Under the pieces are notes generated by a model. That model was not told where the DNA came from, did no database searches, and saw nothing but the letters and a program-made list of their open reading frames with translations. The position numbers were made by a program, and so were the translations under genes. Positions 6,000-64,000 of a DNA stretch of 64,000 nucleotides are shown here, in pieces. Location: positions 3,005,501 through 3,069,500 of the forward strand of contig NZ_CP076361.1 in NCBI RefSeq assembly GCF_018798885.1. The letters run 5' to 3'. Every line of letters begins with the position of its first letter. Position 1 is the first letter of the stretch. The stretch is from Gemmobacter fulvus (lineage in GTDB: Bacteria > Pseudomonadota > Alphaproteobacteria > Rhodobacterales > Rhodobacteraceae).

Positions 6000-6505
6000 C
6001 CATTTCCGGGGTCTTTGTCCGGGGCGGGGGATCGGCGCAGGCGGTGGGGCAAACCCGCCGCATCACGCGGATGTCAGGATCAGACCCATGTTTTTTGCGA
6101 TCACTGTCGGCACGGATTTTCCGGCACCTGGCCTAGCGCCGGGGGCAGTTTTGCACGGTTTCGGGATGGCGTATTCCGCCCCATCCCCCTTGCCGCTGTC
6201 GGCTGGGCATCCCACCTCTGACCTGATGCTGCCGGATGCGGCGGTGGTTGTGCGGGCGAAGGTGGCGGGCTATGCACGCGCAAAAGTTGTGATGCGCCGA
6301 TGCGCCCGTGACTCCATTCATGCGACAAAGGCGGTGACATGACGGCCCGCGCCATGCTTTCGCCAGACGCGAAAGGAAATCGTCATTGTTCTGCCTCAGG
6401 ACTATGGCAGGACGGAAGTGAATTCCCATTTAACAAGATGGGATTGAAAGGTGACAGGGGGCGGGCCGCAGGCACGCTCTCCATGCGCTTCGAAGGAGGG
6501 AAGCC
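6000..6505. other. Gene-poor stretch, no convincing gene
   Basis: About 500 bases between the rpmA terminator and an acetyltransferase. Open frames exist on both strands but none has a good ribosome site, conserved-looking protein or neighbour support. A weak CtrA-like match (TGAA, 7 bases, TTAAC) lies at 6419-6434, and TCCCAT/ATGGGA forms a small inverted repeat at 6424-6443. Otherwise I see nothing. Confidence 0.5.
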
Positions 6506-11303: not shown

Positions 11304-11900
11304 TCAGAAGCTCAGCCGGATTTCACCGTCGCGAATTTCGACCAGCAGGCTGCGGCCAAGGCGGCTAAGCTCTTCTGGCAGCAGGGCAAAATGAACCTGG
11401 GCCGCACTGACCTCGAACCGGGCGGCGGGGTTGGACAGCACCTCCCACAGATCGGGGTCGATTTTCATGCGGGGCGCGGTGCCGGTCAGCACGCAGCGGG
11501 TTTCGCTGCGTTCGATGCTGATGCGCCCGCCATAGGCCATCGCGGTTTCAAGGCACATGAACAGCAGGAAGGCGATCTTGACTTCGTGTCGGGGCAGGTC
11601 TGTCGGGCCGGACCAATCGACCGACAGCCGCCCGCCGCGGGTCAGATCTGCCAGAATGGCCTGCACCTCGGGGCGGCCGATCCGCTGATCGGCGGAGGAA
11701 GCGCCAAAGCCGATGCGGAAGAAGCGGATGCGCGCGCTGGCATTGGCCACGCTTTCGGCAATCAGTGCAATTTCGGGGCCTTTGGTCGCGCCATCCATGA
11801 TCAGCAACTCCACCCCATTGCCGATGGCCCCGATGGGGCTGATAAGATCATGGCAGATTCGGGAGCCGAGAAGGGCGTTCAGGTCGGTGCGGTCTGACAT
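11304..11900 (-). CDS. chpT: Histidine phosphotransferase ChpT
   Basis: A 198-residue phosphotransferase of the CckA-ChpT-CtrA relay. It takes phosphate from hybrid kinase CckA and passes it to the cell-cycle regulator CtrA (and to CpdR). The helix SRICHDLISPIGAIGNGVELL carries the phospho-accepting His at residue 17, and the C-terminal half is a degenerate HATPase-like fold, as known for the family. The start is ATG at 11900 with the conserved LNALLGSRICHDL just after; ten residues further upstream in frame look unconserved. Its gene faces the DUF3553 gene with only 45 bp between. Candidate CtrA sites occur elsewhere in the window (53588 and 63653). Confidence 0.88.
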   Translation of the reverse strand: MSDRTDLNALLGSRICHDLISPIGAIGNGVELLIMDGATKGPEIALIAESVANASARIRFFRIGFGASSADQRIGRPEVQAILADLTRGGRLSVDWSGPTDLPRHEVKIAFLLFMCLETAMAYGGRISIERSETRCVLTGTAPRMKIDPDLWEVLSNPAARFEVSAAQVHFALLPEELSRLGRSLLVEIRDGEIRLSF

Positions 11901-11945
11901 TCTGGCTCCGGTAGCGCGGCGCGCGGGCACGAGGGATGAAAACGG

Positions 11946-51014: not shown

Positions 51015-51650
51015 GTGCAGAAAGACGCCTATACGCTGATCCTCGAAGCCATCGAAGCGGGGGTCTACAAACCCGGCGACCGGCTGGTGGAATCAGAACT
51101 GGCCGAGCGGCTGGGCGTGTCGCGCACCCCGGTGCGCGAGGCGTTGCAGCGGCTGGAAACCCAATCCATGCTGACGCGTGACGGGCGCAGCCTGATCGTC
51201 GCCACGCTGGATCACAACCAGCTGGCAGAGCTTTACGCGGTGCGGACCGAGCTGGAAGGGCTGGCCGCGCGGCTGGCGGCCCGTCATGCGACAGATGAAG
51301 AGATCAGCGTGCTGAAATCCATGGTCGAGGAGGACCGGCAGTTGCTGGGCGGTGATCCGCGCAATCTGAGCCGGGCCAACAAGCGGTTTCACAAGCAGAT
51401 CCACCTCGCCTCGCACAACCGCTTTCTGGTGCAGCAGCTTGATCTGGTGCATCGGTCGATGGCGTTGATGGCCAATACCTCTTTCGCCGCCGAAGGCCGC
51501 GACGAGGTGGCGATGGCGGAACATGACGACATCGTGCGCGCCATTGCCGCACGCGATGGTGATGCGGCCTATGCAGCGCTGCGGGCGCATATCTCCAAGG
51601 CGTTTGAAACCCGGCTCAGGGTGGATGCGGGTGAGCTGAAGCTGCGCTAG
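51015..51650 (+). CDS. GntR-family regulator, FCD subgroup
   Basis: A 211-residue regulator with a GTG start at 51015 (MQKDAYTLILEAIEAGVYKPGDRLVESELAERLGVSRTPVREALQRLETQ). FCD domain from about residue 75 with AELYAVRTELEGLAARLAARHAT, FHKQIHLASHN and DIVRAIAARDGDAAYAALRAHI. No clear operator is seen. Its 3' end overlaps the convergent glycosyltransferase by 35 nt. Target unknown. Confidence 0.82.
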   Translation: MQKDAYTLILEAIEAGVYKPGDRLVESELAERLGVSRTPVREALQRLETQSMLTRDGRSLIVATLDHNQLAELYAVRTELEGLAARLAARHATDEEISVLKSMVEEDRQLLGGDPRNLSRANKRFHKQIHLASHNRFLVQQLDLVHRSMALMANTSFAAEGRDEVAMAEHDDIVRAIAARDGDAAYAALRAHISKAFETRLRVDAGELKLR

Positions 51651-53547
51651 GTGCGGGCATCTCTGGCGGGGCGAAATGGCCGTGGCTGGTCTTGTCCCAC
51701 CAGAAGGGTTTGGTGACCAGTTCCCACGCGGCCTTGTAGGAGGCCAGCGAGCCGAGCGGGAAATAGAGATGCAGCACCGGCGCCCAGAGAGGATGGATCC
51801 GGTTCGGCGTCATCCGCAACGACACCAGCGTCACCGCCAGCAACATCACCTCGGTAAAGAGGAAGATCGTGGCGATACTGTCATAAAGCAGCGGCGGCAG
51901 ACTATCGACCAGCGGATGCGGCAGCCCCAGCGGCACGGCCCAGAACGTCCAGAGCAGCGGCGCCAGCAGGAACTGTGACAGGGTGGTCAGGAAAAACACC
52001 TGAAAGCCGATGAACTTCCACCAGCCCAGCTGCCGCAGCAGCAAGGCGGGCTGCCGCATATGCACGGCATAGGTCATCATATAACCTTTCAGCCAGCGCG
52101 ACCGCTGCCGGACCCAGGGCAGGACGCGGCAATTGGCCTCTTCAAAGGTGGTGGTGGCGATCAGCTCGGTCCTAAAGCCGTGGCGGGCCAGCCGCATCCC
52201 CAGATCGGCATCTTCGGTGACGTTGAACGCATCCCAGCCGCCCAGCTGCTCCAGCGCCGCGCGGCGGAAAAACAGCGTGGTGCCGCCCAAAGGAATGGCA
52301 AGGCCCAGACGCTCCAGCCCCGGCAGGATGATGCGGAACCAGGTGGCATATTCCATGGTAAAACAGCGGCTGAGCCAGTTGGTATGCGGATTGTAGAAAT
52401 CCAGCACGCCTTGCAGGCAGGCGACCTCGGCCCCGCGGTGATGAAACCTGTCGACCACGCGGCGGATCTGGTCGGGCTCGGGCGCGTCTTCGGCGTCATA
52501 GACGCCGATGATGCTGCCGCGACAGGCATCCAGCGCATAGTTCAGCGCGCGGGGTTTGGTTTTCAGCCGCCCATCGGGCACCACCACAACCCGCATCCAG
52601 GGCGGCAGGCAGGCGCGCTGCAAGGCGGCGCGGGTCAGGCTGTCCTCCTCCTCGACCACCAGCAGGATATCGAGCAATTCGCGCGGATAGTCCAACAGCC
52701 CCAGCCGCTGCACCAGACGCGGTGCAATCGTGCCCTCGCGATACAGCGCCACCATGACCGACACGATGGGCAGGCGCTGGATATGCACCGGCGGCCCTTC
52801 CGGTGGCGGGCGGCGCAGGGCGGCAAAGATGGCGGCGGTTTTCAACAGGGTGGCCAGCAGCAGCGTCAGCATGGCCCAGAAGGTCGCGGCACAGAGCAGC
52901 GAAAACGGTGCCAGCACCGCCCAGGACGCCAGCAGGATCACGCCACAGCGCGCCCAGAGCCCCTGTGTCTGGCCCCCCCAGTCGCGGCAGCTTTCGGCGG
53001 CGGCGACGCGCCGCTGCGCCGCGTGATCCAGCTGCGGGCCGCGCGCCAGCAGGATGGCCGCCTCGATCCGGTTGGCGGGCAGGACCGCCAGCGCGATCTT
53101 GCCAAAGGTGGCGTGCAGGCGCGGCTGGTTGCGGGCGAAGTCTTCGGGATGCGCGGTGGCGATCACGGTCACATCGCCCAGCCGCCGCCACGGCAGCAGG
53201 CTTTCGCGCAGGCAGGTCGCGGCCCCCAGCGCATCAATCAGCCGGGGATCGGGCGGGCAGGCCTGCACATCGGCCAGATCGGCGCCCCAATGCTGCGCCA
53301 TGGCGCGATAGAGCGCCGTCTCGGAGATCATGCCGCGCGACAGCAGGATGTCGGCCAATCGCCCGCGCCGCTGGCGGTGCAGCGTCAGCGCCTGCACCAT
53401 GTCATGCGGCGCGACCAGCCCGGCCCGCAGCAAGACCACGGCCAGCGTTTCGGCCGAGGGGGCCGCCTCCCGCGCCTGCCAACCCGGCAGAGCCACCGCA
53501 GCGGAGGTCACCGGATCGGGCAGAAGCTGAAGACGCGGAATGGCCAT
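51616..53547 (-). CDS. Glycosyltransferase family 2 with GspE-N (MshEN) domain
   Basis: A 643-residue membrane glycosyltransferase. Residues ~35-120 look like a GspE/MshEN N-terminal domain (VQALTLHRQRRGRLADILLSRGMISETALYRAMAQHWG), a module that binds c-di-GMP in MshE proteins. Then hydrophobic segments near 198-245, and a GT2 core with VYDAEDAPEPDQ near residue 349, TEDADLGMRLARHG near 442 and the processive QRSRWLKGY near 479. Several C-terminal membrane segments follow. It would make or export a polysaccharide. A CtrA-type site lies 40 nt before the ATG at 53547, and its 3' end overlaps gntR. Confidence 0.87.
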   Translation of the reverse strand: MAIPRLQLLPDPVTSAAVALPGWQAREAAPSAETLAVVLLRAGLVAPHDMVQALTLHRQRRGRLADILLSRGMISETALYRAMAQHWGADLADVQACPPDPRLIDALGAATCLRESLLPWRRLGDVTVIATAHPEDFARNQPRLHATFGKIALAVLPANRIEAAILLARGPQLDHAAQRRVAAAESCRDWGGQTQGLWARCGVILLASWAVLAPFSLLCAATFWAMLTLLLATLLKTAAIFAALRRPPPEGPPVHIQRLPIVSVMVALYREGTIAPRLVQRLGLLDYPRELLDILLVVEEEDSLTRAALQRACLPPWMRVVVVPDGRLKTKPRALNYALDACRGSIIGVYDAEDAPEPDQIRRVVDRFHHRGAEVACLQGVLDFYNPHTNWLSRCFTMEYATWFRIILPGLERLGLAIPLGGTTLFFRRAALEQLGGWDAFNVTEDADLGMRLARHGFRTELIATTTFEEANCRVLPWVRQRSRWLKGYMMTYAVHMRQPALLLRQLGWWKFIGFQVFFLTTLSQFLLAPLLWTFWAVPLGLPHPLVDSLPPLLYDSIATIFLFTEVMLLAVTLVSLRMTPNRIHPLWAPVLHLYFPLGSLASYKAAWELVTKPFWWDKTSHGHFAPPEMPAPSAASAHPHPP

Positions 53548-53587
53548 GCGAACCCTGTGCGATATGGCGCAAGGCTTCTCCAGAAAT

Positions 53588-53604
53588 GGTTAAGGCCGCG
53601 TTAA
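53588..53604 (-). promoter_or_regulatory. CtrA box, exact TTAA-N7-TTAAC
   Basis: On the minus strand TTAA-CGCGGCC-TTAACC, an exact match to the CtrA consensus, ends 40 nt before the glycosyltransferase start. Orientation and position suit CtrA control of that gene. chpT, needed for CtrA phosphorylation, is in the same window. Confidence 0.65.
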
Positions 53605-53645
53605 AACACGCGGCCTTTCGTTCACTACAGGCTTCGGGGCGGGCC

Positions 53646-54800
53646 TTATGCGGCGCGGCGGGCGCGCATCGCTTCGGCAAACCGCTCGAACAGATAGAAG
53701 CTGTCCTGCGGGCCGGGGCTGGCCTCGGGGTGGTGCTGCACCGAGAACACCGGCTTGCCATCGACGCGGAGGCCGCAATTGGTGCCGTCGAACAGCGAGA
53801 TATGGGTTTCGATCACCCCGGCGGGCAGGGTCTGGCTGTCCACAGTGAAACCGTGGTTCATCGAAGTGATTTCCACCTTGCCGGTGTCCTGATCCTTCAC
53901 CGGATGGTTGGCGCCATGGTGGCCATGACCCATCTTCACGGTCTGCGCGCCCAAGGCCAGCGCCAGCATCTGATGGCCAAGGCAGATGCCGAACACCGGC
54001 AGATCCGCCGCCAGCACGCCCTTGATCATCGGCACGGCATAGCTGCCGGTGGCCGCCGGATCGCCCGGACCGTTGGAGAGAAACACGCCTTCCGGGTTCA
54101 GCGCCAGCACATCCTCGGCGGTGGCGCTGGCCGGCAGCACCGTCACTTCGCAGCCCGCCGAAGCGAGGCAGCGCAGAATATTGCGCTTGGCACCATAGTC
54201 GATCGCCACCACGCGCAGGCCCGCGCCTTCGCGTTTGCTATAGCCTTCAGGCCAGGCCCACCGCATCTCATCCCAGCGGTAGGATTGCGCGCAGGTCACG
54301 TCCTTGGCCAGATCCAGCCCGACAAGGCCCTTCCAGGCGCGCGCCTTGGCCACCAGCGCCTCGATGTCGAAATTGCCATCGGGGTCATGCGCCAGTGCCA
54401 CATGCGGCGCGCCTTGCTGGCGGATCGCACGGGTCAGGCGGCGGGTATCAAGCCCGCCGATGCCGATGCGGCCCTTCGACACCATCCAGGTCTGAAGATC
54501 GGCGGTGGCGCGCCAGTTCGACGGCGCCGTGGGATCCCATTTCACCACCATGCCTGCCGCCACCGGCTCGGCGGTTTCGTCATCTTCCACCGTCACGCCG
54601 GTATTGCCGATATGCGGGAAGGTGAAGGTGACGATCTGGCTGGCATAGGAGGGATCGGTCATGATCTCCTGGTAACCGGTCATTGCGGTGTTGAACACCA
54701 GCTCTGCCACCGTTTCGCCTGTAGCGCCAAAGCCCTTGCCGTAAAAGATCGTACCGTCTGCGAGGGCAAGGCAGGCAGTTGGGACAGCGGTGCTGGGCAT
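53646..54800 (-). CDS. carA: Carbamoyl phosphate synthase small subunit
   Basis: A 384-residue glutaminase subunit that gives ammonia to the large subunit for arginine and pyrimidine synthesis. It has LADGTIFYGKGFGATGETVAELVFNTAMTGYQEI near residue 11-44 and the class I amidotransferase motif FGICLGHQMLALALG (nucleophile Cys near residue 272) with HHPEASPGPQD near 354. Length about 385 is standard. ATG 54800. The large subunit is not in the window. Confidence 0.95.
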   Translation of the reverse strand: MPSTAVPTACLALADGTIFYGKGFGATGETVAELVFNTAMTGYQEIMTDPSYASQIVTFTFPHIGNTGVTVEDDETAEPVAAGMVVKWDPTAPSNWRATADLQTWMVSKGRIGIGGLDTRRLTRAIRQQGAPHVALAHDPDGNFDIEALVAKARAWKGLVGLDLAKDVTCAQSYRWDEMRWAWPEGYSKREGAGLRVVAIDYGAKRNILRCLASAGCEVTVLPASATAEDVLALNPEGVFLSNGPGDPAATGSYAVPMIKGVLAADLPVFGICLGHQMLALALGAQTVKMGHGHHGANHPVKDQDTGKVEITSMNHGFTVDSQTLPAGVIETHISLFDGTNCGLRVDGKPVFSVQHHPEASPGPQDSFYLFERFAEAMRARRAA

Positions 54801-54909
54801 GATGCGACTCTCCGGGTAAACCGGGGGGAACCTAAGGGGAGGGCGGCTTTGGGTCAACCCCAATGCAGCCGCAGAAACCGTAAAAGTCTTGTGTAATGAT
54901 TTCAATGAC

Positions 54910-54938
54910 TTGGCATAAATTGGCCCGGTTGTGTTACA
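54910..54938 (+). promoter_or_regulatory. Possible promoter for yqeY
   Basis: TTGGCA at 54910-54915 and GTTACA at 54933-54938 with a 17-bp spacer; the -10 box is weak. It lies 52 bp before yqeY in the divergent gap with carA. Confidence 0.35.
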
Positions 54939-54990
54939 GGCCGTGACCGGGTAGAGTCGCAATCTGTTGAAACCTGGGGATGGGTATCGG

Positions 54991-55449
54991 ATGAGCTTGC
55001 GCGACCAGCTGCAAACAGCACTGAAAGAGGCGATGAAGGCGAAAGAGGCGGATCGTCTGTCGACGCTGCGCCTGATCAATGCCGCCATCAAGGACCGGGA
55101 GATCGCGCTGCGCGGTGAAAGCGAAGCGGCGGTGGTCGATGATGCCGCCATTCTTGCCATTCTGGGCCGCATGGTGAAACAGCGCCAGGAAAGCGCGCGC
55201 GCCTATGAAGAAGGCGGGCGGCTGGAACTGGCGGAAAAGGAACTGTCTGAAATCACGGTCATTTCGGAATTTCTGCCGCGCCAGCTGGACGGGGCCGAGG
55301 TCGGATCCGCCATTGATGCGGCGATTGCCGAGGCGGGGGCGACCAGCATCCGCGACATGGGCAAGGTGATGGCGGTGCTGAAGGGTAAATATACCGGCCA
55401 GATGGATTTCGGCGCGGTGGGCCCGATGGTCAAGGACAAGCTGGCCTGA
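54991..55449 (+). CDS. GatB/YqeY domain protein
   Basis: A 152-residue YqeY protein with LRDQLQTALKEAMKAKEADRLSTLRLINAAIKDREIA near residue 3-39, EKELSEITVISEFLPRQLD and the C-terminal TSIRDMGKVMAVLKGKYTGQMDFGAVGPMVKDKL. Its domain resembles the tail of the GatB amidotransferase that binds tRNA; free YqeY function is not settled. ATG 54991 begins the domain; an in-frame ATG at 54967 is upstream. Divergent from carA. Confidence 0.88.
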   Translation: MSLRDQLQTALKEAMKAKEADRLSTLRLINAAIKDREIALRGESEAAVVDDAAILAILGRMVKQRQESARAYEEGGRLELAEKELSEITVISEFLPRQLDGAEVGSAIDAAIAEAGATSIRDMGKVMAVLKGKYTGQMDFGAVGPMVKDKLA

Positions 55450-55472
55450 GGGCCAAGCCGGATCGCTGTGGG

Positions 55473-55498
55473 AAGGGGGCCGGTTCGGCCCCTTTTTT
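55473..55498 (+). terminator. Intrinsic terminator after yqeY
   Basis: A stem of GGGGCC with GGCCCC plus flanking AA-TT pairs and a TTTTTT run. Strong. Confidence 0.9.
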
Positions 55499-55523
55499 GT
55501 TGTGTGCTTGCTTGTCGAAGCGG

Positions 55524-56009
55524 TTAGCGCAGCGCCCTGAGCCGGGCCGACAGATCCTGCGCCAGGGCGAGTCGTTCGTCCTCTGACAGAAACGCGCCGA
55601 TCTCTACCTCGCGTGGGCCGCCATGCAGCGTCAGATACTGCGGCACCGGCCCGCCCGTTTCGTGCCGGATCACCCGCACCCAATGCGGATTGGCCTGCCA
55701 GTCCTTGCGCATCCCGCGCGGGCCACGGCGGATCAGGTTGATCCGGTCGGGGCCAAGGGTCAAATCCTCGACAATCTCGCCATCGCGATACGAGCGTTCC
55801 AGCGCCCACCAGATCGCGGCGATGGTCAGCAGCAGAAATGGCAGCAAGCCCCAGAGCACGGGCGAGCCGAGGACCGACAGCAAGGGCAGGCCGATCAGCA
55901 GGGCGGTGCCGCCGACAAACCAGACAAAGCCACGCCGCGGCAAGGACCGATGCGGCCAGAGCCGCAGCCGGTCGCCATCGGGGGTGGGGGGAAGCCATTC
56001 ATAGGGCAT
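55524..56009 (-). CDS. DUF2244 membrane protein
   Basis: A 161-residue protein with the DUF2244 layout: a short N-terminal soluble part, two adjacent hydrophobic segments (about residues 29-47 and 49-68) and a C-terminal domain with VEDLTLGPDRINLIRRGPRGMRKDWQANPHWVRV. Start ATG 56009 (MPYEWLPPTPDG) is used; ATG 56081 would overlap the ctaD terminator. It follows the oxidase subunit I on the minus strand, a common neighbour. Function unknown. Confidence 0.75.
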   Translation of the reverse strand: MPYEWLPPTPDGDRLRLWPHRSLPRRGFVWFVGGTALLIGLPLLSVLGSPVLWGLLPFLLLTIAAIWWALERSYRDGEIVEDLTLGPDRINLIRRGPRGMRKDWQANPHWVRVIRHETGGPVPQYLTLHGGPREVEIGAFLSEDERLALAQDLSARLRALR

Positions 56010-56079
56010 GGGCGGCGGACTCGGATATTGATCTGGGAGCGGTATATCAGGCGCGGCCGGGGTGCCGCCATCCCAATGC

Positions 56080-56108
56080 AAAAGGCCCCGGATCGCTCCG
56101 GGGCCTTT
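56080..56108 (-). terminator. Intrinsic terminator after ctaD
   Basis: A 12-bp perfect stem (AAAGGCCCCGGA with TCCGGGGCCTTT) and 4-nt loop; on the minus strand it is followed by T residues. It ends ctaD 15 bp past its stop. Confidence 0.88.
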
Positions 56109-56123
56109 GTGTTTGATCAGGAC

Positions 56124-57794
56124 TTAGTGTGCGTGGCCCTTGTCCCAGTCCTCACGCTTCGGCAGTTGCTCGAAGGTGTGTTCCGGCGGCGGGCAGGGCA
56201 GGGTCCATTCCAGCGTGTCGGCATATTCGTTCCAGTAGTTGTTCTCGGTGACGCGTTTGCCGAAGAACAGCGTGTAGAACACGATGCCGATGAAGAACAC
56301 GAAGGACACGAACGACAGGAAGGCACCGTAGCTGGAGAGTTTGTTGAAGTAGGCAAACGCCTCCGGGTAGTCGATGTAACGGCGCGGCATGCCCTGACGG
56401 CCCAGGAAGTGCTGGGGGAAGAAGGTCAGGTTGGAGCCGATGAACATGAGCCAGAAGTGCACCTTGCCTGCCCATTCCGGGTAGTGGCGGCCCGACATCT
56501 TGCCCATCCAGAAATAGATGCCGGCAAAGATCCCGAACACGGCGCCGAGGCTCATCACATAGTGGAAGTGTGCCACGACGTAATAGGTGTCGTGATAGGC
56601 GCGGTCGACCGAGGCCTGGCTCAGCACGATGCCGGTCACGCCGCCCACGGTGAACAGGAACAGGAAACCCTGTGCGAACAGCATCGGGGTTTTGAACTCG
56701 AGCGAGCCGCCCCACATGGTGGCAATCCACGAGAAGATCTTGATGCCGGTCGGCACGGCGATCACCATGGTGGCCATCATGAAGTAGCTTTGCTGCGTCA
56801 GCGACATGCCGACGGTGTACATGTGGTGCGCCCAGACGACAAAGCCCAGCACACCGATGCCGACCATCGCATAGACCATCGGCAGATAACCGAAGATCGG
56901 CTTGCGCGAGAAGGTGGCGATGACCTGGCTGATGATGCCGAAGGCGGGGAGTACGATGATATACACTTCGGGGTGGCCGAAGAACCACAGGATGTGCTGA
57001 TACAGGATCGGGTCACCGCCGCCCGAGGGCTGGAAGAAGGTGGTGCCGAAGTTCCGGTCGGTCAGCAGCATGGTGATGGCACCGGCCAGCACCGGCAGCG
57101 CCAGCAGGATCAGCCAGGCGGTCACGAAGATCGACCAGGCGAACAGCGGCACCTTGTGCATGGTCATGCCGGGGGCACGCATGTTGAGGAAGGTGGTGAT
57201 GATGTTGATGGCGCCCAGGATCGACGAGGCCCCCGACAGGTGGACCGCGAAGATCGCGAGGTCCATCGAATAGCCGCCTTCGTTGGTCGACAGCGGCGGG
57301 TAGAGCACCCAGCCCACGCCCGAACCCAGCTGGTCATTGCCGCCCGGCGAGAACACCGAGGCCACGGCGAGCGAGGTGCCCGCCACATAGAGCCAGTAGC
57401 TGAGGTTGTTCATGCGCGGGAAGGCCATGTCCGGCGCACCGATCTGCAGCGGCATGAAATAGTTGCCGAAACCGCCGAACAGCGCCGGAATGACGACGAA
57501 GAACATCATCAGGATGCCGTGGGCGGTGACCGTGACGTTCCACAGGTGGCCGTTGGGCGTGCAGGTCTGCGCGGCATCTGCCACGAAGCGCGTGCCTTCC
57601 ATGCACATGTACTGAACGCCCGGCTCCATCAGCTCGTAGCGCATGAAGACGGTGAACAGCACCGAAATCAGGCCGACGATACCGCCGGAGAAGAGATACA
57701 GGATCCCGATGTCTTTGTGGTTTGTCGACATGAACCAGCGGGTAAAGAACCCGCGGGTGTCATGGTCGTGGCCATGAATGGCTGCGTCGGCCAT
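56124..57794 (-). CDS. ctaD: Cytochrome c oxidase subunit I (aa3 type)
   Basis: A 556-residue heme-copper oxidase subunit I, the catalytic subunit that reduces oxygen and pumps protons. Twelve hydrophobic segments are expected. Key features: [26 protein letters not shown] (low-spin heme His), [20 protein letters not shown] (CuB His and Tyr; K-channel), [11 protein letters not shown] (CuB His pair) and [14 protein letters not shown] (heme ligands). It is the full length. A FnrL box lies about 105 bp upstream. Subunits II and III are elsewhere. Start ATG 57794 follows GGGAGG. Confidence 0.96.
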
Positions 57795-57898
57795 TGGCGC
57801 CTCCCGTTGCGTTGCTCGAAATGGGCGACCGGGAAGGAATCCCGCCGCCTGATGGCGCTATTTCTAGAGCGGGGATCAGGCGGCGGCAATTGCAGAGT

Positions 57899-57912
57899 TT
57901 GATGCAGATCAA
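57899..57912. promoter_or_regulatory. FNR/FnrL box before ctaD
   Basis: TTGAT-GCAG-ATCAA, a perfect TTGAT-N4-ATCAA FNR site, between cytochrome c and ctaD, about 105 bp ahead of ctaD. It suggests oxygen control of the aa3 oxidase. Confidence 0.75.
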
Positions 57913-57943
57913 AAAACCTGCGCGTCAGAGGTGCTTAGCTGCG

Positions 57944-58381
57944 TCAGTTCGCCGCAGGTTTGACCGAAGCCAGATAGGCGGCCATGTCTTCGCCGCCCTT
58001 GGCCAGCTTGAAGGTCATCTTGGATTTCGCCGAGGCGTCGCCCGTCTGCTCTTTCAGCCATTTGGCCGGATCGGCCACATAGGCGGCCAACAGCGCCTCG
58101 TCCCAGACGACGCCCTTGGCACCGACGGCGACAATCGACTCGCCGTATTTGTAATCGGCGACAGAGCCGACAGCACGGCCCACCACGCCATAAAGGTTCG
58201 GCCCGGTCTTGCCGCCCTTCTGGATCTCGGTGCCGTCATCAGCCACGATCATGTGGCAGGCCTTGCATTTCTTGAAATCGGCCTCGCCCTTGGCGGCGTC
58301 ACCTGCGGCAAGGGCCGGGGTGGCGAGGGCAAGGGGCAGGGCGGTCAGGGCCGCGAGCGCGGCAGCAGTCATCAGGTTCAT
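57944..58381 (-). CDS. cycA: Class I cytochrome c (c2/c550 type)
   Basis: A 145-residue soluble electron carrier with a signal peptide (MNLMTAAALAALTALPLALATPALA, cleaved near residue 26). Heme site CKACH is near residue 39-43 and the axial Met is in KSKMTFKL near residue 121-125. It would carry electrons from the bc1 complex to the oxidase. Placed just upstream of ctaD on the same strand, an order I recall from Paracoccus, which supports this role. ATG 58381. Confidence 0.93.
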   Translation of the reverse strand: MNLMTAAALAALTALPLALATPALAAGDAAKGEADFKKCKACHMIVADDGTEIQKGGKTGPNLYGVVGRAVGSVADYKYGESIVAVGAKGVVWDEALLAAYVADPAKWLKEQTGDASAKSKMTFKLAKGGEDMAAYLASVKPAAN

Positions 58382-58509
58382 GCGGTTTCCTCCAGTTGGC
58401 GAGCGGTCGCTAGCGGCAAACAGTTCGCAGGATGGCGCGAATGTTCAAGAGAGACGTAAGTCCAGCCTGTCTGCCTGGCCATGGGGCAGGGTGTCGCTGT
58501 TCTGGGCCT

Positions 58510-59181
58510 TCAGCCCGGTGGGGTGGGGCAGGTGGCGTGCATGGCGCTGTCGAAGGTGGCCATCAGGGCGGCGTCCAGATCAGCCATGGTGACCGGCAGG
58601 CCAAGGTCGACCAGACTGGTCACCCCATGCTCGCGGATGCCGCAGGGCACGATGCCGCTGAAATGGCTCAGGTCCGGTTCCACATTGATCGAGATGCCGT
58701 GAAAGCTGACCCAGCGGCGCAGCTTGATCCCAAGCGCCGCGATCTTGTCTTCGCGCGGGCTGCCATCCGGTCCGCGCGGCAGATCGGGGCGCTGCACCCA
58801 GACGCCGACGCGACCGGGGCGGATTTCGCCGGTCACGTTGAACTCGGCCAGTGCCGCGATCACCCAGTTTTCCAGCGCCCGCACGAAACAGCGCACATCC
58901 GCGCCACGCTGTTTCACATCTAGCATCACATAGACAATGCGCTGCCCCGGCCCGTGATAGGTATATTGCCCGCCGCGCCCGACCGCATGAACGGGAAAGC
59001 GGTCCGGTTCGACCAGATCGGCGGCCTTGGCCGAGGTGCCTGCGGTATAAAGCGGCGGGTGTTCCAGCAGCCAGATTGCCTCGGCGGCCTCGCCCCGGGC
59101 AATCGCCTCGGCGCGGGCCTCCATCGCGGCCAGCGTCTCGGTATAGGGGCTGAGCCCCGGCAGATGGCTCCACTCGACCAT
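58510..59181 (-). CDS. lipB: Octanoyltransferase LipB
   Basis: A 223-residue enzyme moving octanoate from acyl carrier protein to lipoyl-dependent proteins. It has [30 protein letters not shown] near residue 69-88 (His and substrate pocket), [22 protein letters not shown] near 147-168 with the catalytic Lys, and GIVPCGI near 177-183 with the catalytic Cys. ATG 59181 has AGGAG. Length is standard. LipA is not nearby. Confidence 0.93.
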
Positions 59182-59283
59182 GGCACTCCTTTGCGGCGGC
59201 GCCGCCGCGCTTTTCCTTCTCGCGCAATGGCGGGGCCGTGTTAGGCTGTCACAATTGAACAAGACGATTTAGGGAGACTTGCA

Positions 59284-60738
59284 ATGAAACTTAAGACAGT
59301 TGCAACCACATGTGTGGTGGCCGCGCTTGCGCTGGGTCAGGCCGAGCCGGTGCGCGCGGATGCAGGCGACGCGATTGCCGGGGCGATCATCGGGGGCCTG
59401 ATCGGCGGGGCCATCGTGAAGGACCAGCAGCGGCGCAAGGCCGCCAGCAAACCGCGCAGTTCCTCGAAATCCGCCGCCCCCAAAAGCACGATGTCCACCG
59501 CGCAGCGCGAATCCAACCGCGAGGTGCAGACCGCGCTCAATCACTTTGGCTTTCCGGTGGGCACGCCCGATGGCTCCATCGGGCCGAAAAGCCGCGCGGC
59601 CATCTCCAGCTATCAGGCGCTGCTCGGGTATCCGCCCACCGGCCAGCTGACGGATTACGAACGCACCCTGCTGGTGACATCCTATCACCGTGCCATTGCC
59701 GGCGGGCCGGTGATTGCGCAGACGGCGGCCACGCATCCGATGGGCATGAAGGGCCTGCTGCTGGTGCAGCGCGATGAAATGGCCGGGGTGCCCGCCGCCG
59801 TGCCGCAGGGCACGCTGGCCGCCGTGGCCCCGCCTGTGGCTGCCGCGGCAGCGCTGCCTGCGCTGGTGGCCGAACCTGCGCCGACGCCCGCGCCTGCCGC
59901 ACCGGCCCTGCCCAGCTTCATGGGGGCGACGATGGTGTCGCTCAGCTCGCATTGCAACACGGTCGCGCTCAAGACCAACAGCAATGGCGGCTATGTCACG
60001 GTCGCCAGCCTGACCGATCCGGTGCAGGCCCTGTCAGAGCAGTTCTGCCTGAGCCGGGCTATCGCGATCCAGCAGGGCGAAGAGATGGCGCGCACTGTGG
60101 CGGGCGTGACACCGGTGCAGATTGCCGATCAGTGCAAGGCCTTCGGGCCGGTCCTGAAGGATCATGTGACGGCGGTGTCGCTGAAATCCGCGACGGATGT
60201 CCTGTCGGGCGTGGCCAATTTCGTGGCCGGCAGTGGTATGTCGCCCGCGCAGTTGTCGGGCACCTCCAAGATCTGTCTGGGCGTTGGCTATGCGCAAGAT
60301 GACATGGAGGTGGCGCTTGGCTCGGCGCTGGTGCTGACCGCCCTGGGCGAGGCAGGCTATGCCGAACTGCCGGGGCACCATCTGGCCGAAGGGATCGGCG
60401 CGACGCGGCGGCCCGATCTGGCACAGGGCTGGTATGAAATGGCGCTGGGGGCCGCCGGGCAGGGCATGGCCCCGCTGGCCCCGGCCAGCGCCGAACGGCA
60501 GGATCTGATCCGCAAGGCGGTGTTCATGCTGGGGGGCCGCAGCGAGGCCCCCGCAGCCGCCGCCCCCGCGCTGCCGGTGCTGGTGGCCCCCGCCGCGCCC
60601 GAGGTCGTGGTGCAGGCCGCTCCCGCGCCGGTGCTGGCCCCGCCAACCCCCGCTGCCGCCCCCGCGTCGGCGCCGATGTCTGCCGCAAAGGCGGTGTCCT
60701 TTGCCACGGCGCTGCCCCGGTTGATGATGGGGCAGTGA
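59284..60738 (+). CDS. Exported peptidoglycan-binding domain protein
   Basis: A 484-residue protein with a signal peptide (MKLKTVATTCVVAALALG, cleaved near residue 26), then a glycine-rich hydrophobic stretch AIAGAIIGGLIGGAIV. A PG_binding_1 domain is near residues 77-135 (REVQTALNHFGFPVGTPDGSIGPKSRAAISSYQALLGYPPTG). The rest is Ala/Pro-rich linkers around a Cys-containing helical domain (residues ~220-390) of no known family, then a Pro/Ala tail. Probably a periplasmic envelope protein; no enzymatic motif seen. ATG 59284 with an AGGGAG-like site. Divergent from lipB. Confidence 0.75.
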   Translation: MKLKTVATTCVVAALALGQAEPVRADAGDAIAGAIIGGLIGGAIVKDQQRRKAASKPRSSSKSAAPKSTMSTAQRESNREVQTALNHFGFPVGTPDGSIGPKSRAAISSYQALLGYPPTGQLTDYERTLLVTSYHRAIAGGPVIAQTAATHPMGMKGLLLVQRDEMAGVPAAVPQGTLAAVAPPVAAAAALPALVAEPAPTPAPAAPALPSFMGATMVSLSSHCNTVALKTNSNGGYVTVASLTDPVQALSEQFCLSRAIAIQQGEEMARTVAGVTPVQIADQCKAFGPVLKDHVTAVSLKSATDVLSGVANFVAGSGMSPAQLSGTSKICLGVGYAQDDMEVALGSALVLTALGEAGYAELPGHHLAEGIGATRRPDLAQGWYEMALGAAGQGMAPLAPASAERQDLIRKAVFMLGGRSEAPAAAAPALPVLVAPAAPEVVVQAAPAPVLAPPTPAAAPASAPMSAAKAVSFATALPRLMMGQ

Positions 60739-60884
60739 TCCGCTGATCCGGCTGGGGGCGCGCGGCCAGTCTTGCGCGCCCTTTCAGGCGCTTGGGCGTG
60801 GCACAAATATTTCGGGGCTTGCGTGAAATCCCCCTTTTCTTCCGCGTGGGGCTTCGCTAAACACCGCGCACCAAGTCAGATCGT

Positions 60885-60971
60885 GCGGATGTGGCGGAAT
60901 TGGTAGACGCGCAGCGTTGAGGTCGCTGTGGGGTAACACCCGTGAAGGTTCGAGTCCTTTCATCCGCACCA
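60885..60971 (+). tRNA. tRNA-Leu (anticodon GAG)
   Basis: Starts GCGGATGTGGCGGAATTGG, has the anticodon stem CAGCG/CGCTG with loop TT-GAG-GT, a long variable arm, a GGTTCGAGTCC T-arm, an acceptor that closes with CATCCGC and encoded CCA at 60969-60971. The class II form and GAG fit tRNA-Leu reading CUC. Confidence 0.95.
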
Positions 60972-61152
60972 TTTTTCCTTCGCCATGAGTGGCTTGAGTG
61001 GAAAATGCCCTCCCAAACGTTTCGCACTGCTCAGATGCTCAGCCTTGACGGCTGCAGGACAAAACCCGCGTAGCGACGTGTTTTCCCGCCTCTACGCGTG
61101 GTTCGATCGTCCCGAGATGGGGGCGGGGGCAGTGTCATGCCCCCGCGGTCTG

Positions 61153-62430
61153 TCAGGCGGTCCGCGCCGCCGCCACAGCTTCTTCCAGAATGGCCATCGC
61201 CTCGGCAAAATGCGCATCAGGAATGGTGATCGGGGCCAGGAAGCGGATCACGTTGCCATATACACCGCAGGTCAGCAGCAGCAGGCCGCGCTTCAGCGCC
61301 TCCAGCCGCACGCGGCCGGTGAAACCGGCGTCCGGCTCCTTGTTGGCGGGGTTGGCAAATTCCACCGCCACCATGAAGCCGGGGCCCCGGATGTCGCTGA
61401 TTTCCGGCGTCACGGCGCGGATCGCCTCAAGTTTCTGCTTCAGGCGGCTGCCCAACTCGTTCGCGCGGCCACAGAGGTCTTCCTCCTCGATCACATCCAG
61501 CACGGCATGGGCGGCGGCAATGCCCAGCGGGTTGCCGCCATAGGTGCCGCCCAGCCCGCCCGGATGGGCCGCATCCATGATCTCGGCCCGGCCCGTCACC
61601 GCCGCCAGCGGCAGGCCGCCGGCCAGACCCTTGGCCATGGTGGTGATGTCGGCGGCCACGTCATAGCCGTGCATCGCAAACAGCGTGCCGGTGCGGGCAA
61701 AGCCGGTCTGCACCTCGTCGGCGATCATCACGATGCCATGCTCGTCGCAGAGCTTGCGGATGGCGCGCATCAGATCGGCGGGCGCGGGGTAGAAGCCGCC
61801 TTCGCCCTGCACGGGTTCAAAGATGATCGCAGCAACGCGGGCCGGATCGAGATCAGCCTTGAACAGCTTGGTGATTCCCGCCATCGCATCGGCGGTGGAA
61901 ATGCCATGCACATCCTGCGGGAAGGGAACGTGGAACACATCCGGCATCATCGCGCCGAAACCCTTCTTGTAGGGCTCCACCTTGCCGGTCAGCGTCATGC
62001 CCATGAAGGTCCGGCCATGGAAGGCCCCACCAAAGGCAATCACCGCATTGCGGCCGGTATGGATGCGCGCGATTTTCACCGCATTTTCCACGGCCTCGGC
62101 CCCGGTGGTCACAAACACGGTCTTCTTGGCAAAATCGCCGGGTACAGCGGCATTGAGCCGTTCTGCCAGACGGATGTAGTTTTCATAGGGCAGAACCTGA
62201 TGGCAGGTATGGGTGAATTTCTGCATCTGTGCTGCGACTGCCGCCATCACCCGCGGGTGGCAATGGCCGGTATTCACCACGGCGATGCCCGCCGCGAAGT
62301 CGATATAGCGGTTGCCCTCGATATCCCAGACCTCGGAGTTCAGTGCGCGTTCGGCATAAATCTGCGTCTGCATTCCGACACCGCGCGAAATGGCATCGTC
62401 ACGGCGCTTGGCGACTTCGGTATTCAGCAT
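61153..62430 (-). CDS. gabT: 4-aminobutyrate aminotransferase
   Basis: A 425-residue class III PLP aminotransferase converting GABA to succinate semialdehyde. It has IDFAAGIAVVNTGHCHPRV near residue 48-66, TTGAEAVENAVKIARIHTGR near 106, IFEPVQGEGGFYPAP near 205, IADEVQTGFARTG near 237 and the Schiff-base lysine in TTMAKGLAGGLPLAAV near residue 270. ATG 62430 follows GAGAGGA. A TTTTGATCAAAA palindrome is upstream. An AraC regulator follows at its 5' side. gabD is not in the window. Confidence 0.92.
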   Translation of the reverse strand: MLNTEVAKRRDDAISRGVGMQTQIYAERALNSEVWDIEGNRYIDFAAGIAVVNTGHCHPRVMAAVAAQMQKFTHTCHQVLPYENYIRLAERLNAAVPGDFAKKTVFVTTGAEAVENAVKIARIHTGRNAVIAFGGAFHGRTFMGMTLTGKVEPYKKGFGAMMPDVFHVPFPQDVHGISTADAMAGITKLFKADLDPARVAAIIFEPVQGEGGFYPAPADLMRAIRKLCDEHGIVMIADEVQTGFARTGTLFAMHGYDVAADITTMAKGLAGGLPLAAVTGRAEIMDAAHPGGLGGTYGGNPLGIAAAHAVLDVIEEEDLCGRANELGSRLKQKLEAIRAVTPEISDIRGPGFMVAVEFANPANKEPDAGFTGRVRLEALKRGLLLLTCGVYGNVIRFLAPITIPDAHFAEAMAILEEAVAAARTA

Positions 62431-62485
62431 GGTCTGTTCCTCTCGGGCCCGGAGTATCGGATCGGTATGGGGCGTTTCGCGCATC

Positions 62486-62499
62486 ATTTTGATCAAAAT
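62486..62499. promoter_or_regulatory. ATTTTGATCAAAAT palindrome before gabT
   Basis: A perfect 14-bp palindrome 56 bp before gabT with core TTGATCAA, the same core as ahead of the omega-transaminase (15298) and the GntR gene (13962). Confidence 0.6.
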
Positions 62500-62560
62500 T
62501 CTGCGGCGTTCAACCGGATTTGCGACATGCGATCCGGCGCAAAGCGGCAAGGCCGCCCAC

Positions 62561-63583
62561 TCAGCTGCCGAAATGCGAGAAACGATAGGGCGAGACGCCG
62601 TATTTCTTGCGGAAGCTCTTTGAGAAATGCGAACTGGAGGCATAACCGCAGGCCACGCTGACCTCGGTCACGCTCATGTCGGTTTCGGCCAGCAGCGCGC
62701 GGCCATGTTGCAGCCGCAGGTCATTCATGTAACGGACCGGCGTGACGCCAAGATAGCGGTTGAACAGCCGTTCGATCTGGCGGCGCGATACGCCCAGATG
62801 CGTGGCGCAGGCATCCAGATCGAATTCATCCTCGATCCGCGCTTCCAGAAAGGCTACGGCCTTGATCAGCTTTTCGTTGCGCGTGCCCAGGCGGGCCGCC
62901 AGCGAGGTGATCTGTTCATCCTCTTCGGTGCGCCGCTGGGTCAGCAGGCACATGTTCATCACCTCCTGGCTCAGCTGCGCGCCATAGCGGTCATGGATCA
63001 GCTTGAGCATCAGGTCGGCGGCGGCCACACCCCCGGCACAGGTGACAATGCGTTCGTCGATGCAGAACACCTGCCGGGCGGGTTCCAGATCGGGGAAGGT
63101 TTCGGTGAAGCCCGAGATGTTTTCCCAATGCAGGGTGAAGCGCCGCCCCTTGAGGATGCCCGCCCGCGCCAGCGCATAGGCGCCGGTGCAGAGCCCGCCC
63201 ACGGTGCGGCCCCGCCGCCACTGGCCGCGCACCCAGTCGCCCAGCGAATCGGTGATCTCCACTTCGGGCTGCACCCCGCCGCAGACCAGCACATGGCCCT
63301 GCGGCAGCGCCTCGGACAGCGGGCCGTCCGGCAGAACCGGCACGCCGTTGGAGCAGGCGACGGGTTTGCCATCCTCGGAATAGGTGCGCCAGCGGAACAG
63401 AATCTGCCCGGTCAGCTGATTGGCCACCCGCAGCGGCTCGATCGCGGCGGTAAAGGCCAGCATGGTAAAGCGCGGCACCAGAACAAAGGTCACCGAAAGG
63501 GGTTCGGTCACCTTGGGCAGCGTCACATGCGCAACGCCGCGCGCCACATATTTCCGGGCGTCAGTCTGGTCTGTCTCTGCCAT
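62561..63583 (-). CDS. GlxA-type AraC-family regulator
   Basis: A 340-residue regulator: N-terminal DJ-1/PfpI (GATase1-like) domain (TFVLVPRFTMLAFTAAIEPLRVANQL; GLCTGAYALARAGILKGRR; TCAGGVAAADLMLKL) and a C-terminal AraC domain (LDACATHLGVSRRQIERLFNRYLGVTPVRYMNDLRLQHG, AETDMSVTEVSVACGYASSSHFSKSFRKKYGVSPYRF). The group includes ArgR, GbdR and CdhR type regulators of amine and amino-acid breakdown. Gene order next to gabT (130 bp gap, same strand) suggests control of GABA or arginine use. ATG 63583. Confidence 0.87.
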   Translation of the reverse strand: MAETDQTDARKYVARGVAHVTLPKVTEPLSVTFVLVPRFTMLAFTAAIEPLRVANQLTGQILFRWRTYSEDGKPVACSNGVPVLPDGPLSEALPQGHVLVCGGVQPEVEITDSLGDWVRGQWRRGRTVGGLCTGAYALARAGILKGRRFTLHWENISGFTETFPDLEPARQVFCIDERIVTCAGGVAAADLMLKLIHDRYGAQLSQEVMNMCLLTQRRTEEDEQITSLAARLGTRNEKLIKAVAFLEARIEDEFDLDACATHLGVSRRQIERLFNRYLGVTPVRYMNDLRLQHGRALLAETDMSVTEVSVACGYASSSHFSKSFRKKYGVSPYRFSHFGS

Positions 63584-63652
63584 AGGCGCTGCCCTATCGC
63601 GCTGTGTGCGACTGCGCAAGCATAGCAATTTTCCGCAGGGGTGGGGCAGATC

Positions 63653-63669
63653 TTTACGGGCCATTAACC
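63653..63669 (+). promoter_or_regulatory. CtrA-like box ahead of dprA
   Basis: TTTA-CGGGCCA-TTAACC, one mismatch from the CtrA consensus, 41 nt before the dprA start, the same distance as the site ahead of the glycosyltransferase. Confidence 0.5.
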
Positions 63670-63710
63670 ACCGCTCCGCGATGCTGCCTGCATCTTAAAG
63701 GAGCAGAGCG

Positions 63711-64000
63711 ATGGCGGCGCGGCTGAACTGTGATCCGATCCCCCCGGCAGCGGTGCTGAGCGCGGAAGACCGGCTGGCGCGGCTGCGCCTGATCCGGTCG
63801 CGCCGCATCGGGGCGGTGACCTATCACCGCCTGCTGGCGGAACATGGCACCGCCGGGGCGGCGCTGGACGCCTTGCCCGAAATTGCCCGCGCGGCAGGGG
63901 TAGAGAATTACGCGGCCTGCCCGCCCGAGGTGGCTTTGCATGAAATGCGGGCGGCGCGTCTGGCCGGGGCAAGGATGCTGTGCCATGGCGAGGCGCTTTA
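63711..64000 (+). CDS. dprA: DprA/Smf N-terminal part, 3' truncated
   Basis: The frame starts at ATG 63711 (AAGGAG upstream) and stays open to the window end; 96 codons are seen. It reads LRLIRSRRIGAVTYHRLLAEHGTAGAALDALPEIARAAG, then KEMRAARLAG-like HEMRAARLAGARMLCHGEALY, which is the N-terminal helix-hairpin portion of DprA, before the Rossmann domain that loads RecA on single-stranded DNA. DprA is needed for DNA uptake and, in Rhodobacter capsulatus, for gene-transfer-agent reception. A CtrA-like site precedes it. Confidence 0.88.
   Translation, partial: MAARLNCDPIPPAAVLSAEDRLARLRLIRSRRIGAVTYHRLLAEHGTAGAALDALPEIARAAGVENYAACPPEVALHEMRAARLAGARMLCHGEAL

Follow-up and report, generated by a model that had tools for sequence, protein, structure and literature searches.

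A 64,000-nucleotide stretch of the Gemmobacter fulvus genome (contig NZ_CP076361.1, positions 3,005,501 to 3,069,500 of the forward strand; hereafter the window) carries two genes that are preceded by boxes of the CtrA type, and here we weigh the case for their control by CtrA. The first gene (51616..53547, minus strand) encodes a 643-aa glycosyltransferase, referred to below as GT, in which an MshEN domain is joined to a membrane GT2 synthase. The second is dprA, of which the 5′ part lies in the window (63711..64000, plus strand; TIGR00732, 239.5 bits against a cut-off of 191.15) and which continues beyond it to a total of 381 aa. The GT box, TTAACGCGGCCTTAACC (53588..53604, minus strand, read from 53604 to 53588), is an exact match to TTAA-N7-TTAACC and ends 40 nt ahead of the GT ATG at 53547. 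The dprA box, TTTACGGGCCATTAACC (63653..63669, plus strand), has one mismatch that leaves its left half sub-consensus, and ends 41 nt ahead of the dprA ATG at 63711. Both sites had been pointed out in an earlier reading made from the letters alone (the sequence-only reading), and their positions and sequences were reconfirmed.

Counting alone said little about these sites. Three matches with at most one mismatch were present in the window against 0.62 expected, but this is weak, as 3 of 100 shuffles attained the same number. Genome-wide, the exact core TTAA-N7-TTAAC occurred 14 times versus 8 for the reversed control pattern. Since both counts are weak, the question was decided by comparison with relatives. 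The genome-wide scan that the sequence-only reading had proposed was of little help with the core motif. The stricter pattern TTHAY-N6-TTAACC, which was selected only after relatives had been inspected, gave 10 matches versus none for its reversed control, the GT and dprA sites being among the 10. A weaker third match from the same reading, TGAATTCCCATTTAA (6419..6434, plus strand, one mismatch), was rejected as a CtrA site and is judged a chance occurrence: it was conserved in none of 10 relatives, none of which had a match with two or fewer mismatches inside 200 nt. By the same test, their conservation, the GT and dprA sites do exceed chance.

GT matches were found in 11/11 genomes of the genus and in 94/100 genomes of a family sample (one of the 94, G027, being a weak partial match only and scored as lacking GT), with Pseudorhodobacter, Gemmobacter, Rhodobacter, Tabrizicola and Cochlodiniinecator among the relatives. 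The upstream DNA of 107 distinct GT loci was compared, and the box was sought up to 110 nt from the start codon adopted. For this comparison duplicates (L033, L054) were left out, loci with too little upstream DNA (L105, L238, L249) were dropped, and no upstream region was taken from G008, where the N-terminus is missing, or from G032, where the match lies at a contig edge. The exact box was present in 89 of the 107 regions, and 99 had it when one mismatch was tolerated; shuffled upstream DNA gave 0.10 and 1.95, respectively. When spacers of 2 to 12 nt were compared, the 7-nt spacer accounted for the 89 exact boxes and every other spacer for five or fewer, although with one mismatch allowed the other spacers attained up to 21/107 regions. 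The left half reads TTAA in 93 of the 99 boxed loci. In an earlier set of 105 loci, the exact box was seen upstream of GT in 88 and never inside its first 220 coding bases. Since start codons were script-chosen, some box-to-start distances (6–32 nt and above 60 nt) probably reflect miscalled starts.

The full GT box looks like a family trait. A further genome of the same family also carries it in exact form, while none of the 17 GT loci examined outside the family (11 of them with the N-terminus aligned) has an exact box, and two loci of one other-family genus show a one-mismatch form. The 17 loci come from 22 other-family genomes with a GT match, the remaining five having matches without the N-terminus. 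On these 17 loci, the proposal that CtrA control of GT is older than the family was rejected.

The dprA box is conserved to a similar extent, and at a different grade. A dprA match was found in 11/11 genus genomes and 98/100 family genomes, a few of them distant only, and a box with at most one mismatch lies within 110 nt in 94/101 upstream regions, versus 1.93 in shuffles. Among these 94 boxed loci the sole mismatch falls in the left half in 89 and in the right half in one, and only four boxes are exact. The left halves read TTTA (43), TTCA (35), GTAA (8), TTAA (5), TAAA (2) and CTAA (1). A tree of 39 dprA proteins has good support at 15/36 inner branches; it requires a minimum of 11 changes among the left-half states (with ‘none’ as one of them), yet TTAA appears in one row. 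We infer from this pattern that selection keeps the dprA box sub-consensus, and the weakened half-site probably makes for a response at a different CtrA level. Both boxes, counted within 150 nt and with at most one mismatch, are present together in 90/97 genomes readable at both genes. The two sites are thus conserved in most of the upstream regions compared.

The spacing downstream of the boxes is also consistent with a CtrA promoter. Counted from the box start, position +28 is an A at 61/93 GT loci and 76/94 dprA loci, against a background of 0.21–0.22, and both promoters of the window have it. In the accessible part of PMC6180460, 5′-RACE of R. sphaeroides CtrA promoters placed the start 23–24 nt past the box end, with an invariant A at −11. 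If +28 is equated with −11, the predicted starts fall 24–25 positions past the last base of the box, according to whether its final C is included, and the leader would be some 20 nt long; the conserved A fits the mapped CtrA geometry. The predicted −10 element of GT lies at 53572..53577 (minus strand; predicted −11 A at 53576, predicted start near 53565), and that of dprA at 63680..63685 (plus strand; A at 63681, start near 63692). The closest mapped counterparts are the fla2 promoters of Rhodobacter (Cereibacter) sphaeroides, which, as far as the same portion of PMC6180460 describes them, share the TTAA-type box near −35, and whose conserved A at −11, box-to-start distance of 23–24 nt and leaders of 12–33 nt resemble the geometry predicted here. 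They differ in serving flagellar genes rather than GT and dprA, and in that two of them have a 6-nt box spacing.

The regulator itself is encoded in this genome (ctrA at C1:526924-527595, 431 bits, cut-off 350). In the family sample, a GT orthologue is missing from 5/6 genomes in which no ctrA match reaches 200 bits, vs 2/94 of those with ctrA; these are hand-entered counts over related genomes, in which shared ancestry is ignored and events are not independent. In the sixth ctrA-less genome (G018, with 82% completeness) GT is divergent, and no box was seen upstream of it. The sequence-only reading had placed a chpT gene at 11304, and the best families of this histidine phosphotransferase-like gene (11304..11930, minus strand) are indeed ChpT, although its scores of 108 and 91 bits are below the curated cut-offs of 240 and 225. 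Its statement that CtrA drives dprA agrees with published mutants: according to the text available from PMC12363192, dprA goes down when the CtrA relay is mutated in P. inhibens and in D. shibae. The CtrA-dependent dprA of these two species, and that of R. capsulatus as judged by the title of a cited paper, is the same gene under the same regulator as here, and what the present comparison describes in addition is the conserved sub-consensus left half-site. The glycosyltransferase is not named in the passages on relay mutants (sections 10 and 11 of PMC12363192). A literature search that covered titles and abstract openings found no published link between CtrA and the glycosyltransferase, so that absence from print is not established.

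Taken together, the conservation of the sites, the promoter geometry, the presence of ctrA and, for dprA, the published mutants (PMC12363192, in part) suggest that CtrA very likely controls both genes and that both sites are functional sites of activated promoters, a reading that we give a probability of roughly 0.88. Phosphorylated CtrA would bind the TTAA-N7-TTAAC box at about −39 to −25 and would recruit RNA polymerase to a weak −10 element with the conserved A at −11, the transcripts having a leader of about 20 nt. In this scheme dprA would be a second CtrA target, behind a lower-grade box that is kept sub-consensus family-wide.

The probable role of GT follows from its domains. Pfam identifies GT2 domains and MshEN in the protein. 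The MshEN domain, of the c-di-GMP type (53050..53457, minus strand, approximately residues 31–166; PF05157, 31.5 bits, cut-off 23.1), has degenerate motifs in this species, and the GT2 catalytic domain (51928..52764, minus strand, approximately residues 262–540) contains the motifs DAED, TEDADL and QRSRW. In the protein alignment, from which L023 was left out (as was L060 from alignment A1), DAED and QRSRW are invariant in 46/46 rows (two of them duplicates) and TED is intact in 45/46. A profile of 43 GT sequences matched the solved structures of BcsA (PDB 4hg6 and others, E 4.7e-14) as well as the MshEN-type domains of PilF, PilB and MshE (MshE 5htl, E 4.9e-11). GT is thus likely, by its domains, a c-di-GMP-type exopolysaccharide synthase. 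Its GT2 catalytic region is like that of BcsA cellulose synthase; the CelA model gave 55 bits, far below its cut-off of 699. The regulatory domain of BcsA is PilZ, whereas GT has MshEN.

By architecture, the nearest studied protein is NfrB of Escherichia coli, a c-di-GMP-activated exopolysaccharide synthase which, in the part of PMC8669469 at hand, has the same combination of MshEN and GT2 with DxD, TED and QxxRW motifs. GT differs from NfrB as described there in that the domain order is reversed, with MshEN N-terminal, in that the MshEN motif is degenerate, and in that its neighbours are carA and a convergent GntR gene rather than nfrA-ybcH. The curated NfrB model scored 34.3 bits on GT against a cut-off of 1170, and no nfrA-like outer-membrane gene was found among the GT neighbours in the window. 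These neighbours are carA, upstream of GT (53646..54800, minus strand, start chosen by the analyst), a convergent GntR/FCD regulator and a HAD hydrolase. A carA match accompanies 105/107 GT loci (two duplicates counted), upstream in all 60 with a stated position. The most likely role of GT would be that of a polysaccharide synthase inside a swim-or-stick programme. The enzyme would make an exopolysaccharide, its output ancestrally set by c-di-GMP, so that CtrA would set the supply of enzyme and c-di-GMP its activity.

Several observations weigh against this reading or parts of it. The core motif is barely enriched genome-wide and alone proves little. No box lies within 110 nt at 8/107 GT loci, four of which have an exact box 96–142 nt upstream and four have none, nor at 7/101 dprA upstream regions. 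Two genomes with ctrA (G064 and G093) have no box at either gene, possibly because they branched early, before the control arose, through joint loss or through miscalled starts. A 6-nt spacer, with one mismatch allowed, also fits 44/101 dprA upstream regions; in 42 of these it is the TTTAC form shifted by one base, for which 6-nt spacing would be indistinguishable from 7. A 6-nt box spacing is reported for two R. sphaeroides promoters in the part of PMC6180460 available. The box-aligned GT and dprA promoters do not show the published G at −4. The GT box also overlaps a perfect 10-bp stem in this genome (53592..53617, minus strand, a possible carA terminator), and box and terminator may share DNA here. 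As for the enzyme, the c-di-GMP model NF053729 gives 35.9 bits in this species, under its cut-off of 38, and the two RLG..LxxxLxxQ motifs are degenerate, reading TLA and RLA, and having H in place of both motif glutamines. Among five relatives the same model scores above cut-off in L026, L066 and L068 and below it in L064, and is not listed for L018; gating by c-di-GMP may therefore have been lost in some species. In L018, L064 and L066 the strength of the MshEN motif varies while the CtrA box, or its one-mismatch form, persists. Finally, in the portion of PMC6473078 consulted, dprA of D. shibae is called LexA-controlled and no CtrA site is reported. LexA control of dprA was rejected for the present set, as no LexA-like GAAC/GTTC-N7 pair was found in 39 dprA upstream regions.

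The sequence-only reading had further proposed that the polysaccharide enzyme may share a cell-surface or DNA-reception programme with dprA. In its explicit form, both genes would be part of one CtrA-driven programme for reception of gene transfer agents (GTAs), with GT making or modifying the surface receptor. The joint occurrence of the two boxes in most genomes would suit it, as would the requirement for dprA in GTA reception in R. capsulatus (known here from the title of a cited reference) and the capsule being a GTA receptor, as the partial literature seen has it. We used PF13547 as a single marker of the GTA cluster; it is present in 87/100 genomes, this one included. Of the eight ctrA-positive genomes without it, seven retain GT, all seven with both boxes at one mismatch or fewer and five with the GT box exact, so that GT does not occur only alongside the GTA cluster and, as far as one marker tells, neither box is tied to GTAs. 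Moreover, the enzyme is NfrB/BcsA-like by domain, that is, of the c-di-GMP-exopolysaccharide type; GT and dprA are 10 kb apart; and CtrA has target classes other than DNA uptake, according to the text seen of PMC12363192. The DNA-reception link is therefore unsupported, and we regard a shared GTA programme as quite unlikely.

A wider proposal, which draws CtrA control and the surface together, is speculative and on balance unlikely. The carA-linked MshEN GT would be a core, previously unlisted, family-wide member of the CtrA regulon, and its twice-gated exopolysaccharide (CtrA acting on transcription, c-di-GMP on the enzyme) would act both as adhesin and as a docking surface for GTAs or phages, as the NfrB polymer does for phage N4, with dprA behind its weaker box so that DNA processing would answer to a different CtrA level.

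Two alternatives concern the regulator and the sign of its effect. Genomes of the family have many OmpR-type regulators (a loose E-value gave as many as 26 matches in one genome), one of which, rather than CtrA, might bind the box. Yet motif, spacing and geometry fit mapped CtrA promoters, a strong site lies ahead of a CckA-like gene, and of the six ctrA-less genomes five lack GT and the sixth showed no box upstream of it; a different regulator is very improbable. That CtrA represses rather than activates both promoters seems equally remote: CtrA can repress where a half-site overlaps the −10 (PMC6180460, in the part available), but here the box lies upstream of the predicted −10, at an activating distance, and dprA goes down in the relay mutants of PMC12363192, so far as its text was seen. 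Hardly credible, lastly, is the notion that the carA terminator hairpin gave rise to the GT site, whose resemblance to a CtrA box would then be fortuitous. Although the perfect stem covers part of the box here, the box is kept at spacer 7 in 89/107 loci while its flanks vary, and in 67/92 boxed loci no stem as long as 7 bp spans it, on which ground we rejected a terminator artefact as the general cause of the box. A hairpin over the box downstream of carA is also seen in some other members of the genus.

If CtrA does control both genes, a surface-polysaccharide synthase would be added to its targets as a family-wide, lineage-specific member, and the cell-cycle/quorum relay would be tied to c-di-GMP and surface life in Rhodobacteraceae. 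The two fixed grades of site, full at GT and half-weakened at dprA, would be open to dose-response comparison, and GT would be a concrete gene for work on biofilms and gene transfer agents.

Other CtrA-like sites were seen in this genome. A palindromic one near C1 position 89940, among the few strong ones, lies ahead of the gene for the CckA-like histidine kinase, where feedback by CtrA would lead one to expect it; an earlier prediction had put cckA and divL of Rhodobacterales under CtrA (PMC2877005, seen in part). Another strong site precedes the gene of a PAS protein, which we guess to be DivL. About 185 nt upstream of a WbaP-like sugar transferase gene (C1, near 2304843-2305760) lies a TTAA-N7-TTAA site, which is exact in 4/10 and has one mismatch in 3/10 genus genomes at nearly the same place, which would fit a broader control of surface polysaccharide by CtrA. 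Divergent from dprA, and sharing its intergenic region, is an AraC-type regulator gene (window 62561-63664; best family GbdR, below cut-off). Close to the end of the main contig (C1:3369671-3370007), two strong CtrA-like sites separated by about 320 bp have no clear downstream gene, and two overlapping boxes (C1:4701-4728) lie 52 and 41 nt ahead of the gene for a 417-aa RTX-type calcium-binding protein.

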